This document shows, piece by piece, positions 1,231 through 18,220 of a DNA stretch of 32,529 nucleotides. The DNA is from a virus: positions 1-32,529 of IMG/VR virus record IMGVR_UViG_3300008450_007994; one strand, written 5' to 3'. Position numbers and translations under genes: made by a program. Each line of letters begins with the position of its first letter. Positions within the stretch are counted from its first letter, which is position 1. Below the pieces are notes generated by a model. The model saw nothing but the letters and a program-made list of their open reading frames with translations. It did not search any database and had not been told where the DNA came from.

Positions 1231-1353
1231 TTAAATGGCCTCCAACTTCATGCATCTGCTACAGGCCATATACGTTTTACCAGTAAATGGGCATGTGCCA
1301 GCCTCTACTGTTAATGAATGTCCTACAAATAAGCATAAAAGACTACTCAGCAT
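1231..1353 (-). CDS. small zinc-knuckle-like protein, 40 aa
   Basis: ATG at 1353 lies inside the end of the CDGSH gene and is preceded by AAGGATGAGG, a good ribosome site. Residues include Cys7, His12, Cys21, Cys31 and Cys34, with CPFTG and CSRC motifs resembling small phage zinc-binding proteins. It ends in TAA at 1231, and the same frame continues open for 59 codons beyond (see 1051-1230). Function not recognised. Confidence 0.6.
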   Translation of the reverse strand: MLSSLLCLFVGHSLTVEAGTCPFTGKTYMACSRCMKLEAI

Positions 1354-1474
1354 CCTCATCCTTAACATTAAAAGTCAAAGGTACTCTTACTTCCATAGCA
1401 GAATCTAAAGCTTTATGGCTTCCATCGCATATTGGATATTTTGCAGAATGCCCACATGTACATTGTTTAGGCAT
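1343..1474 (-). CDS. CDGSH-type iron-sulfur domain protein, 43 aa
   Basis: Residues 5-20 match the CDGSH signature exactly: C5-x-C7-x2-S-x3-P-x-C16-D-G-S-H20. Three Cys and one His ligate a redox-active, labile 2Fe-2S cluster in this family (mitoNEET-like and bacterial zinc-finger CDGSH proteins). The protein is almost only the binding motif plus a 23-residue beta/acidic tail, so it would have to work as a dimer or a partner subunit. ATG at 1474 overlaps the end of groES by 8 nt and the ribosome site is weak, so coupling to groES is likely. Electron transfer or cluster donation is inferred from the family. Confidence 0.8.
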   Translation of the reverse strand: MPKQCTCGHSAKYPICDGSHKALDSAMEVRVPLTFNVKDEDAE

Positions 1475-1781
1475 TAGTATATTTAAACCCCAATAAATTC
1501 TTATAGTTAATTAAGATGTATTCTTCTCCATCCTCATCTTTGATATCTGTTCCAGCACCACGACCATAATAAACAGTCATACCTTTTTCAATGCCGTCCA
1601 TTATCATAATATCATTATTAAATGCACTTCTTTCTCCTGGACCAACATCAATTACAGTACCAGATCTTACATAACTATCAACAATTCCAGCTGTTAAAAC
1701 TAATCCAGATGCAGTTGTTGTATCAGTTACAACATTTTCTTTTACTAAAACCAATGATCCGTATGGCCTGATACTAGTCAT
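1467..1781 (-). CDS. groES: GroES-like co-chaperonin, 104 aa
   Basis: The N-terminus (IRPYGSLVLVKENVV) and the following segment TTTASGLVL match the Cpn10 beta-barrel and the mobile-loop region that contacts GroEL. The central G-x-V-x-x-V-G-P-G-E motif is also typical (GTVIDVGPGERS), and the end (DGEEYILINYKNLLGF) matches the last strands. Length is normal for the family (95-105 aa). Start ATG 1781 has AAGAAGG six bases upstream. No GroEL gene is visible here, so it would cap the host chaperonin, as phage T4 Gp31 does. It is coupled to CDGSH downstream. Confidence 0.85.
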   Translation of the reverse strand: MTSIRPYGSLVLVKENVVTDTTTASGLVLTAGIVDSYVRSGTVIDVGPGERSAFNNDIMIMDGIEKGMTVYYGRGAGTDIKDEDGEEYILINYKNLLGFKYTNA

Positions 1782-1953
1782 TTAGAGCCTTCTTTGCATT
1801 TATCTCAGTCCAGTATTTATTTCCTGGAGCCTCACTATTACTGTTCAATAAAAGCCCATGACCATATCTATTAAATAATCCTTTTAGATAGTTTTCATGT
1901 GCTTTCTTTTTTTGAGAACGCTTTAGATCTTTTGATCTTTGTTTTTGACTCAT
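1774..1953 (-). CDS. hypothetical basic protein, 59 aa
   Basis: ATG at 1953 with AAGG four bases upstream; the stop TAG overlaps the groES start by 8 nt. The first 20 residues are very Lys/Arg-rich (KQRSKDLKRSQKKK), followed by a helical part (NYLKGLFNRYGHGLLL) and a polar tail. The basic N-terminus could bind nucleic acid. Family not recognised. Confidence 0.65.
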   Translation of the reverse strand: MSQKQRSKDLKRSQKKKAHENYLKGLFNRYGHGLLLNSNSEAPGNKYWTEINAKKALND

Positions 1954-6839: not shown

Positions 6840-7010
6840 TTAATTTAGTTCTAGCATCTTTACATGAAAAGAACATGGATCTCCACCATCATCCCATTCC
6901 TGCATTTCTTCATCTGTTAATGGTGGTCCATCATGAGTATCACAAAATACTTCTGATATCCAACCATTATCTTGTCCAATCTTCATCCAATCCCAATAAT
7001 TTAAATCCAT
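6840..7010 (-). CDS. conserved actinophage-type small acidic protein, 56 aa
   Basis: ATG 7010 overlaps the thioredoxin stop. The protein reads as a known actinophage small-protein pattern: W-x-x-W-M-K near the start, G-W-I-S-E-V-F-C-D-T-H-D-G-P, then E-E-M-Q-E-W and D-D-G-G-D-P-C-S-F-H-V. Two Cys and two His could bind a metal. The family recognition is from memory and its function is unknown. It replaces the N-terminal extension of the next frame downstream. Confidence 0.75.
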   Translation of the reverse strand: MDLNYWDWMKIGQDNGWISEVFCDTHDGPPLTDEEMQEWDDGGDPCSFHVKMLELN

Positions 7011-7306
7011 TGACTGAATTCCTTTACGATTAAATGTTTAGGCATAGCGCCTATTATGGTCTTAATTGGTGCACCATCTTCAAATAATACCACAGTTGGT
7101 ATTGAGAATACTGAGAATTGAGAAACTTTGATAGGATTTTCATCAGAATTAACTTTAAATACACTAATCGCATATTCTGACTCTATGTCCTGCATTATCG
7201 GCGAAATCCTTTTGCATGGAACACACCACTCAGCCCAAAAATATACTAGGCACTTTTTAGAAGAATTGATTTCCTCATCAAAGTTCAAGTCCGTCAAATC
7301 AATCAT
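7001..7306 (-). CDS. thioredoxin-like protein
   Basis: 101 residues with a complete thioredoxin fold: first strand (KKCLVYFWAEW), active-site W-C28-V-P-C31, cis-proline in S-I-P-T, and the closing G-A and helix. The active site is WCVPC instead of WCGPC, which would shift its redox potential. It should reduce disulfides in the cytoplasm; phage partners could be a ribonucleotide reductase or a polymerase outside the window. ATG 7306 overlaps the upstream stop as ATGA, and the gene is the fourth in the operon from 8001. Confidence 0.9.
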   Translation of the reverse strand: MIDLTDLNFDEEINSSKKCLVYFWAEWCVPCKRISPIMQDIESEYAISVFKVNSDENPIKVSQFSVFSIPTVVLFEDGAPIKTIIGAMPKHLIVKEFSQWI

Positions 7307-7509
7307 TTATCTTTTAGTTCCTCTGCAGCAGCATTAAACTTATTCATAAAAGATTGAATAACAAATATGGTGGTTTCTCTAGAGTTTAATCCTATTGCTC
7401 GTGAAGAATCTTCTGTCTGCTCTTCTACTGGAATAGCATTCCAAAGTTTTTGGTACAGCTCTGTTGAAACATCTTCTATGATGCCTTCAAGCACTGTCAT
7501 ATTAGCCAT
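7303..7509 (-). CDS. hypothetical helical protein, 68 aa
   Basis: ATG 7509 is chosen over the in-frame ATG 7536 because it follows the upstream stop directly (TAAGTATG) with AAAGG before it. The protein is helical and acidic, with VLEGIIEDVSTELYQKLW and a second amphipathic helix TTIFVIQSFMNKFNAAAEEL. Family not recognised. It is translationally coupled to thioredoxin. Confidence 0.65.
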   Translation of the reverse strand: MANMTVLEGIIEDVSTELYQKLWNAIPVEEQTEDSSRAIGLNSRETTIFVIQSFMNKFNAAAEELKDK

Positions 7510-9395: not shown

Positions 9396-9678
9396 ATCTT
9401 ACTCCGTAAGATTCTATTAGTTTTTTAACTTTTGAAACGTAATCAATTACCATTTCTTTTTTATTACCACTGAACTGCAAAAAGTTATCCTCGTAAAGTC
9501 TGATTGCTAAAAATTCTGGATACATAACAATATCTATAAGCAAATCATATGTAGGCTTTGGTATCTCTCTTACCTTTTTACGCATCTCATCTGTATAAAA
9601 TACTGGCTTGTTTGGATCACCAGTCCATTCATTTACCCCGAACTTAAAGTGATTCTTACTTCTATCTATAAAAGTCAT
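9358..9678 (-). CDS. hypothetical protein, 106 aa
   Basis: ATG 9678 overlaps the WhiB stop as ATGA. Mixed alpha/beta sequence: N-terminal Phe-rich segment, a helix (TDEMRKKVREIPKPTYDLLI), a strand (FLAIRLYEDNFLQF), and a closing helix (VIDYVSKVKKLIESYG). Family not recognised. It is co-transcribed with whiB. Confidence 0.65.
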   Translation of the reverse strand: MTFIDRSKNHFKFGVNEWTGDPNKPVFYTDEMRKKVREIPKPTYDLLIDIVMYPEFLAIRLYEDNFLQFSGNKKEMVIDYVSKVKKLIESYGVRCELEGAPSDRVL

Positions 9679-9974
9679 TTTTTTAGCCTTTTCCAGACAT
9701 CTGGTGTCTTATGAATATTTTTATTTGTATCAATAGATCCTGCTGATAAATATATTCCTCCCCAAACACCGTACTCATTATTTGTCTGCCCTGCTAACAA
9801 GCAATTCTTTTTTACTGGGCAGGATATGCATGCTTGATCAATATTTTTTGCTATATTTATATCTGTTTCGTATTGATCAAAGAATAGGTTAGTGTCCATT
9901 CCTTTGCATATAGCAAAATCAAACCAGTCAAAATCCTCTTTGTCTATACCTAAATCATTTAAAATGCTTGACAT
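9675..9974 (-). CDS. whiB: WhiB-family transcription regulator
   Basis: 99 residues with the four cluster-binding cysteines C23, C49, C52 and C58 in the WhiB spacing (C-x25-C-x2-C-x5-C), followed by G-V-W-G-G (69-73), the turn that contacts the sigma factor region 4 in this family. WhiB proteins carry a 4Fe-4S cluster and are confined to actinobacteria and their phages, where they redirect host sigma-A promoters or block host WhiB. The basic DNA-contacting C-terminus (TPDVWKRLKK) is present. The 5' end overlaps gene 9955-10188 by 20 bases. Strong host-range evidence. Confidence 0.92.
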   Translation of the reverse strand: MSSILNDLGIDKEDFDWFDFAICKGMDTNLFFDQYETDINIAKNIDQACISCPVKKNCLLAGQTNNEYGVWGGIYLSAGSIDTNKNIHKTPDVWKRLKK

Positions 9975-14446: not shown

Positions 14447-14635
14447 TTACTTAGGATTATCGGTTTTATAAAAGCCTTGGCCCTTAAATTGTATGCCAAA
14501 TGGGGTGAAGTGTCTAGACATTAAAGACTCACACTCTTCACAAACATATCCTGGGTCATCCTCAGAGATAGATCTTGTCACAGAAAGAAGTGCATGTGAC
14601 TCATCTTCTGTACACTTATACTCATATACTGGCAT
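14447..14635 (-). CDS. FmdB-like zinc ribbon protein, 62 aa
   Basis: The start MPVYEYKC and the end G-I-Q-F-K-G-Q-G-F-Y-K-T-D match the FmdB regulatory-protein family. The ribbon has Cys8 and a CEEC pair; the partner of Cys8 (normally C-x2-C) is missing and is replaced by a D-E-S-H segment, so His14 may be a ligand. FmdB-type proteins are small putative regulators of unknown detail. ATG 14635 overlaps the end of the oxygenase gene by 14 bases. Confidence 0.8.
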   Translation of the reverse strand: MPVYEYKCTEDESHALLSVTRSISEDDPGYVCEECESLMSRHFTPFGIQFKGQGFYKTDNPK

Positions 14636-15215
14636 TATTAGAATTAACCCCTATCATTGGCATAACGTCTATAAGTAAATGTACTCTATTTTCAACACCT
14701 TCATTTTTAACAGAATGTGGTTTAGAATTATTAATTTCCCAACACTCTCCCGCCTTCATATTTTTTACTTCATCTCCTACCTGGAAATAAACATTTTTAT
14801 TTGTAATAATTGGTATATGAAATCTTCTAACTATATCCAAATAATCCCCACTGTCTTGATGTTGCAATATCTCTTTATTTCCTGGAAGATTAATCAAAAC
14901 TACTTTACCCATTTTACCACCAATAATTGATTCTAAATAATTTACTATTGGCTTAACAATTTCCCACAATTCTATATCTAAATATCTAGACTCTGGCATG
15001 TATTTATCTTCATACTGCCAGTCATTTGAGTGTTCAATTAAAAAATATGTATGGGTACTTTTATGAGGCCAATACATATCTTGACGAGAAGTATCAATAA
15101 ACCACTCTGAATTTAATAATCTAACTTTATTCTCTATTTCTGAAATGTCAAAAGTTTTATGAAGTTTAAAATTAAATTCTTCATTTTGTTTATTAAAATA
15201 TCCTACACTTCGCAT
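14622..15215 (-). CDS. Asp/Asn beta-hydroxylase-type 2OG-Fe(II) oxygenase
   Basis: 197 residues with the family's cupin core: H119-x-D121 (Q-H-Q-D-S-G-D), R-R-F-H-I-P-I-I-T strand, a V-Y-F-Q strand, the distal metal ligand His167 (K-P-H-S-V-K-N) and Arg177 (N-R-V-H-L-L-I-D), which binds 2-oxoglutarate. It should hydroxylate a peptide Asp/Asn, a proline or a small substrate in the cytoplasm using O2 and 2-oxoglutarate. Substrate unknown. A structured leader (15221-15285) precedes ATG 15215, and its ribosome site AGAGG lies within that structure. Confidence 0.82.
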   Translation of the reverse strand: MRSVGYFNKQNEEFNFKLHKTFDISEIENKVRLLNSEWFIDTSRQDMYWPHKSTHTYFLIEHSNDWQYEDKYMPESRYLDIELWEIVKPIVNYLESIIGGKMGKVVLINLPGNKEILQHQDSGDYLDIVRRFHIPIITNKNVYFQVGDEVKNMKAGECWEINNSKPHSVKNEGVENRVHLLIDVMPMIGVNSNNASI

Positions 15216-17837: not shown

Positions 17838-18134
17838 TTATATGTCATCCTCAATAGGAATGATTCCGTATTCTTTGGCAACCATCCTGCCTTCTTCTGT
17901 TAACTCAAACTCTGCCTCTAAATTTTCATTGTATGTTATGTTTACTAGGCCCATATCAAATAGCTCCATGAATATCTTATCAATTTCTTCTACGTGAACC
18001 TCCCACAACTCTGGGGCAAGGTCCTTAGCCAGATCAGTTATTTTAAATATAAACTCGCCATCTTCCTCTATACCAACAACCTCAATAACACCCATTTGAA
18101 GATACTCGTACATCTTGTCGTCGCTGTCTTCCAT
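17838..18134 (-). CDS. winged-helix-like small protein, 98 aa
   Basis: ATG 18134 is chosen over a longer frame that runs into tRNA-Leu; it has AAAGG five bases upstream and starts 13 bases after the tRNA. The sequence alternates helices and a strand-turn-strand (ITDLAKDLAPELWEVHVEEI, IFMELFDMGLVNITYNENLEAEFELTEEG), the outline of a winged helix with the wing before the last helix. The protein is acidic, so it may bind protein rather than DNA. It lies between tRNA-Leu and tRNA-Arg in one transcript. Confidence 0.7.
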   Translation of the reverse strand: MEDSDDKMYEYLQMGVIEVVGIEEDGEFIFKITDLAKDLAPELWEVHVEEIDKIFMELFDMGLVNITYNENLEAEFELTEEGRMVAKEYGIIPIEDDI

Positions 18135-18147
18135 GTCTACCTTTCTG

Positions 18148-18220
18148 TACCCCCAGTGGGATTCGAACCTACGCTGTATGGATTTTAAGTCCACTGCCTC
18201 TACCGCTGGGCTATGAGGGC
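18148..18220 (-). tRNA. tRNA-Leu (TAA) with a short variable loop
   Basis: 73-nt cloverleaf: acceptor GCCCTCA/TGGGGGT, D-arm with GCC/GGC, anticodon stem GTGGA/TCCAT with loop CTTAAAA (anticodon UAA), variable loop of five bases (ACAGC), T-arm GTAGG-TTCGAAT-CCCAC (one mismatch), discriminator A. Bacterial leucine tRNAs normally have a long variable arm, which is absent here. An extended -10 promoter lies directly upstream. Confidence 0.85.

Follow-up and report, generated by a model that had tools for sequence, protein, structure and literature searches.

The 43-residue CDGSH gene and its surroundings

The window, that is, the whole stretch of DNA analysed here, is the 32,529-nucleotide IMG/VR virus record IMGVR_UViG_3300008450_007994. 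ORF translation revealed a minus-strand gene at 1343-1474 encoding a 43-aa protein (MPKQCTCGHSAKYPICDGSHKALDSAMEVRVPLTFNVKDEDAE), with an ATG start and a TAG stop; the plus strand gives a nonsense reading across the same positions. The initial annotation had placed a 43-aa CDGSH protein beside groES here, and this was confirmed, the minus strand being the detail that it lacked. Residues 5-20 form a perfect C-x-C-x2-S-x3-P-x-C-D-G-S-H motif. The protein is a member of Pfam PF09360 (zf-CDGSH) by profile (30.3 bits, E 5.2e-7, curated cut-off 29.5), with a match that spans only profile positions 32-48 of 48, and its gene is the sole PF09360 match in the whole 32.5 kb record. The ORF was taken from the first ATG, GTG or TTG. 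The open frame around it has 55 codons, and since the 12 in-frame codons upstream contain no start codon, the protein can be at most a few residues longer at its N-terminus. The gene, its parts and the other genes considered in this work are as follows:

1343-1474, minus strand: gene of the 43-aa minimal CDGSH protein (PF09360, 30.3 bits; dN/dS about 0.13 against L121)
1415-1462, minus strand: CDGSH motif (translation)
1460-1462 (C5), 1454-1456 (C7), 1427-1429 (C16) and 1415-1417 (H20), minus strand: predicted cluster ligands (translation)
1343-1414, minus strand: C-terminal tail KALDSAMEVRVPLTFNVKDEDAE, of low predicted order (AlphaFold2 pLDDT about 50-56)
1467-1781, minus strand: groES, co-chaperonin 10 (PF00166, 3.7e-14; phrog_3188)
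1231-1368, minus strand: small Cys protein of 45 aa, CPFTG...C..C (translation; weak phrog_2670)
1774-1953, minus strand: basic protein of 59 aa upstream of groES (ORF)
7001-7306, minus strand: thioredoxin (PF00085, 5.9e-24)
9675-9974, minus strand: WhiB-like protein (PF02467, 1.1e-11)
14622-15215, minus strand: aspartyl/asparaginyl hydroxylase-type 2OG oxygenase (PF05118, 3.2e-15)

The CDGSH gene overlaps groES by 8 nt (ATGCCTAA), the basic protein gene overlaps groES by a further 8 nt in the same gene string, and the first 26 nt of the 45-aa Cys gene overlap the 3' end of the CDGSH gene. Small Cys proteins of this family (CPYTG...C..C) lie within three genes of CDGSH in six locus clusters. 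The record also encodes RecA, a DNA polymerase III alpha subunit, HSP20 and a Cas4-like nuclease. WhiB has been suggested as an actinophage marker (PMC10202952) and, taken as host marker, suggests that the record belongs to a phage of Actinobacteria. A PnuC-like short membrane protein is encoded at 791-1072 on the minus strand (PF04973, first 69 of 175 profile positions), and several of these phages encode a PnuC-like protein (phrog_2421) close to CDGSH. The record has five tRNA genes; a predicted tRNA-Leu (18147-18220, minus strand) overlaps the ORF at 17838-18194.

The same gene was found at the same site in three other contigs (L036, L038 and L091), with a protein that is 93% identical. Compared with L121, which comes from the same contig as L036, dN was 0.030 and dS 0.226; five of the eight codon differences were synonymous and three conservative (A/S, I/V and V/I). 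The CDGSH gene is under purifying selection. The profile score, the genes at the same site and the low dN/dS together show that it is not a chance frame, and related phages do keep it, a point to which the initial annotation had tied its proposal. Contig L124 has no CDGSH gene, though its groES (90% identical), downstream small Cys gene and PnuC-like gene are kept in the same order, indicating that the CDGSH gene is dispensable cargo.

Short CDGSH frames in viral and cellular genomes

CDGSH proteins are usually longer, as had been pointed out before, and the short form proved to be a phage class. A degenerate motif pattern gave at least 119 stretches in viral contigs and, among the matches listed, many of the viral frames were 24-60 aa long with the CDGSH motif at the very start. 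A start-anchored pattern (M-[KRQNHS]-[KRQNHS]-C-x-C-G...P-x-C-D-G-[ST]-H) was then run on the viral and the cellular collections. It matched 61 stretches in viral contigs and none in 84,980 bacterial and archaeal genomes (257 Gb). With one residue more (M-x-x-x-C) cellular genomes matched, but 117 of the 120 frames ran at least 13 residues further upstream and are therefore ordinary CDGSH proteins with an internal Met. Truly short-looking cellular frames numbered only two, both alphaproteobacterial (L309 and L321); a third, L293, is at the edge of its contig. Minimal CDGSH proteins, which the initial annotation had proposed to seek in phage genomes, are widespread in viral contigs and seem to form a class nearly confined to phages, whose members do without the N-terminal strand of solved CDGSH proteins. 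Among the isolated phages of INPHARED, tblastn with the window protein, a 39-aa form and a KOW-type form gave no convincing match, and a search of a literature collection found no paper linking CDGSH with phages.

Several variants of the short form were seen. Podovirus-like contigs hold motif-only frames of 24-32 aa (L013:293-367, L054:8850-8924, L028:5135-5224, L004:1866-1964 and L109:6838-6936) in the stretch that separates scaffold/capsid from tail genes, surrounded by small basic proteins (e.g. SFCARMSGVKGPMKDSKGRPTRKALALRKWKC). In L129 (6002-6085) a short variant with altered spacing (MPKQCTCGNTKNELGNCDGSHKNKDKE) lies between a MazG-like gene and recA, which is not the site occupied in the window. 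Related frames in L167 (about 6859-6912) and L168 (about 7321-7377) lack the His and Gly of the motif (CNRNPD and CDRNGD), a natural loss of ligand. A second phage architecture, 67-73 aa long, joins a KOW-like domain of about 45 residues to a C-terminal CDGSH module (L024:1422-1640, L027:3992-4213, L074, L077 and others; the KOW label was assigned by eye). A C-terminal module was also seen on a WYL_2 (PF10902) domain in L006 (9122-9493), L017, L030 and L035.

CDGSH modules beside oxygenase and peroxide-enzyme genes

PF13640 2OG-Fe(II) oxygenases are common in T4-like cyanophages. The CDGSH module was found fused N-terminally to oxygenases of this family, of several divergent types, in L007, L008, L086, L348, L358, L363, L365 and L410, L348 being just below the PF13640 cut-off. 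The L008 and L086 fusions are about 30% identical to that of L007; in L086 the module sits on a 2OG paralogue other than that of L007, and an unfused L007-type enzyme adjoins. In L007, L014, L048, L058, L090 and loci related to them, up to five or six 2OG paralogues were observed within approximately 13 genes, and an N-terminal CDGSH module is present on one or two of these paralogues.

Retrieval by motif biases such a set, so viral contigs were also searched with the oxygenase domain alone. This motif-independent scan gave 80 relatives, and 63 of these loci hold a CDGSH module: it is fused to the oxygenase in 21, sits on a neighbouring 2OG paralogue in 19 and is a separate small gene nearby in 23. 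These counts do not represent independent events because the loci are often near-identical. The 23 stand-alone modules are genes of 36-65 aa, and 13 of them overlap or abut the oxygenase frame. The other 17 of the 80 loci showed no module within 2-kb flanks, some of these being cut by contig ends. In all 26 distinct modules of this set C, C, C and H are retained, the His without being demanded by the listing pattern, and N or E can replace the G of CDGSH. The loci retrieved by motif were not used to judge ligand conservation, since the argument would be circular. The three Cys and one His, conservation of which the initial annotation had also made decisive, are kept throughout the motif-independent set.

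Proximity, assessed by within-locus permutation with a 2OG model built from the fused members, was only moderate: in 9 of 25 dereplicated clusters a 2OG gene lay no more than two genes from CDGSH (3.7 expected, p 0.0015). The association was weaker at other ranges and not significant within one gene. With single-linkage clusters at 50% identity, which lumped too many loci together, the test lacked power (p 0.2). PF13640 genes were present in 27 of 44 CDGSH contigs (73 per Mb) and in 16 of 50 groES contigs without CDGSH (27 per Mb), kinship being ignored in both figures. In the closest relatives of the window (L036, L038 and L091) a PF13640 gene lies six genes downstream of CDGSH. The window record itself gave no match to PF13640; the PF05118 enzyme, 13 kb from the CDGSH gene, was the only 2OG-type enzyme found in it and is a possible candidate partner of the CDGSH protein. 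The podovirus-like contigs with the shortest CDGSH genes (24-41 aa; L013, L054, L028, L066, L114 and L004) have no PF13640 gene, and there the surroundings are virion genes. Among the matches listed for INPHARED isolates, none of the 2OG matches covers the CDGSH part, all starting at query residue 60 or later. The window also encodes a very Cys-rich 45-aa protein at 383-520 on the minus strand (CPCGCPPDNCTCCCSNPKGC); at roughly this site the relatives L036 and L091 encode a PF13640 oxygenase together with a CxxCxxCC protein.

Peroxide enzymes form a further set of neighbours. The window-type relatives L018, L032 and L045 have an AhpC-AhpD-CDGSH string in which the CDGSH start overlaps the AhpD stop (TAATG). 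L023 has a glutathione peroxidase near CDGSH. Of the two CDGSH genes in L029, one follows AhpD and the other lies two genes from a 2OG oxygenase. The AhpC/AhpD link, though locally strong, is not general, as it was found in only two of the stricter locus clusters, and no AhpC or AhpD was seen in the window record.

Proposed role and comparison with known CDGSH proteins

In solved CDGSH domains, which are all paired, a beta-strand precedes the motif, the residue immediately before the first Cys is hydrophobic and a proline motif is present (PMC3174974). In the window protein, which has a single CDGSH motif, just MPKQ precedes C5, so that the N-terminal strand is missing and the residue before the first Cys (Phi1 position) is Q4, which is not hydrophobic. 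There is no N-terminal proline (lid) motif, and the C-terminal VPLTF, the only candidate, was not confirmed by structure prediction. AlphaFold2 with a 30-sequence alignment gave a mean pLDDT of 62 (a moderate 70-75 for residues 1-20, about 50-56 for the tail); the prediction for the fused L007 protein was similar (mean pLDDT 61), with a poorly ordered CDGSH module. Foldseek with the predicted model of the window protein found no fold match. As the missing strand is common to all solved CDGSH structures (PMC3174974), cluster binding is not to be assumed.

From the 2OG fusions, the 2OG linkage and the AhpC-AhpD strings we infer a small redox or iron helper. The Cys3His module would most likely bind a labile, redox-active [2Fe-2S] cluster. 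The minimal protein appears stripped of the beta-strands by which cellular CDGSH proteins dimerise alone, and would probably fold or bind its cluster by self-pairing or by docking on a partner. The module may be an accessory of the enzymes with which these phages handle oxygen and peroxide, chiefly 2OG-Fe(II) oxygenases, whose iron it would re-reduce or re-load; beside AhpC-AhpD, it would pass electrons. Uncoupled turnover can oxidise the iron of 2OG oxygenases and so inactivate them, and ascorbate usually restores their activity in vitro. A tethered [2Fe-2S] module could do the job of ascorbate or reload the iron. In the window phage the partner may be the PF05118 hydroxylase, a PF13640 enzyme beyond the contig end or a peroxidase, and the thioredoxin at 7001-7306 is a possible candidate for the upstream reductant. 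This reading of the protein as a minimal [2Fe-2S] helper, redox- or iron-related, for phage enzymes that handle oxygen or peroxide is our main one, with a probability of roughly 45%; that it binds a cluster, which way the transfer runs and which enzyme it serves in the window phage are all deduced rather than observed. The redox relay put forward by the initial annotation is plausible and is better founded through the 2OG fusions and the AhpC/AhpD gene order. We hold more tentatively that motif-only CDGSH modules evolved by phages (24-50 aa, no N-strand) are dedicated electron or iron donors for phage 2OG-Fe(II) oxygenases and peroxidases.

The same residues could instead form a zinc knuckle, in which Cys3His binds structural zinc and the protein is a small protein- or nucleic-acid-binding element with no redox centre. 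The absence of the N-strand of the usual [2Fe-2S] fold, the small Cys-rich protein encoded by the next gene, the 24-41 aa forms among basic virion-cluster proteins in podovirus-like contigs and the presence of the module at the C-terminus of KOW-like and WYL_2 SH3-type domains are consistent with it. We consider it unlikely: the S, P, D and T/S of the CDGSH motif are kept along with the ligands, and recurrent partners that are oxygen and peroxide enzymes would be odd for a mere zinc knuckle. Rather less likely again is a modulator of iron or oxidative stress that buffers iron or senses oxidants in the infected cell with no single enzyme partner. NEET proteins affect labile iron and ROS (PMC6006223), gene neighbourhoods vary, and relatives have the AhpC-AhpD-CDGSH string and the nearby glutathione peroxidase, but the repeated fusion of the module with certain enzymes speaks for a specific partner. 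That the gene is a relic, a functionless, decaying fragment of a longer CDGSH protein, is improbable: its absence in L124 and the loss of the His in two related frames (L167 and L168) would fit, while the low dN/dS, the conserved ligands and the wide distribution of the short start-anchored form in phages argue against decay.

Two further proposals concern genes of the same record, and both are very improbable. NEET clusters are redox-active (Em about 0 to +30 mV), pH-labile via the His ligand and transferable to apo-proteins (PMC6006223), and the initial annotation had envisaged the protein as cluster donor to WhiB or the Cas4-like nuclease, both encoded here. Neither gene is near CDGSH. Of 50 related contigs that carry groES but no CDGSH match above the cut-off, 44 encode WhiB, and WhiB is absent from podovirus-like contigs that have CDGSH genes; a dedicated WhiB donor is therefore unlikely, and this part of the proposal is not supported. 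A groES-coupled folding or assembly function, the other proposal, had been read from the 8-nt overlap. The synteny is recurrent, groES lying within one to four genes of CDGSH in five locus clusters, but of 61 groES loci just 14 have a CDGSH gene within 5 kb and 47 have none at that range, L124 keeps the gene order without it and most CDGSH loci have no groES nearby. The coupling thus stands as synteny and shows no role in assembly.

The window protein is a new and seemingly almost phage-restricted PF09360 variant with a testable partner class. The biochemical role of CDGSH proteins is unsettled and 2OG oxygenases are common but poorly explained genes of aquatic phages; the recurrent CDGSH-2OG fusion offers a concrete partner for both. 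If the dedicated-donor proposal is true, the module would be a kind of built-in reductase that is not known for 2OG oxygenases and peroxidases. The 43-aa, 39-aa and 24-aa forms would rank among the smallest natural iron-sulfur proteins and would test how little protein a [2Fe-2S] cluster needs.

Compared with known CDGSH proteins, the window protein falls outside all seven structural types (Lin 2011), as its N-strand is absent. Its nearest PDB sequences were 3tbn (best, 6.5e-6), CISD3 and 3tbm, with alignments that cover the motif only. Types 3 and 4 (PDB 3tbo, PcCISD, 53 aa; 3tbm, RsCISD), both among the solved sequences nearest to it, share its single motif and its ligands, but dimerise through beta-strands and a P motif that lie on the N-terminal side of the CDGSH motif (PMC3174974), where the window protein has four residues. 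Type 6 (PDB 3tbn, MmCISD; human CISD3), which includes its best PDB match, carries two motifs and N-strands in one chain, in contrast to one motif and no N-strand here. MitoNEET (CISD1, type 1) has the same motif and, by eye, a strand-like V-P-L-x-F stretch at a similar C-terminal distance, the PDB alignment covering only the motif; it also has a membrane helix and an N-strand, whereas the window protein has neither. By this comparison by eye, VPLTFNV in the tail (within 1343-1414) could replace the C-terminal proline/strand element of mitoNEET. Among phage proteins, the PF13640 2OG oxygenases are the family that serves as fusion and neighbour partner of the relatives of the window protein.
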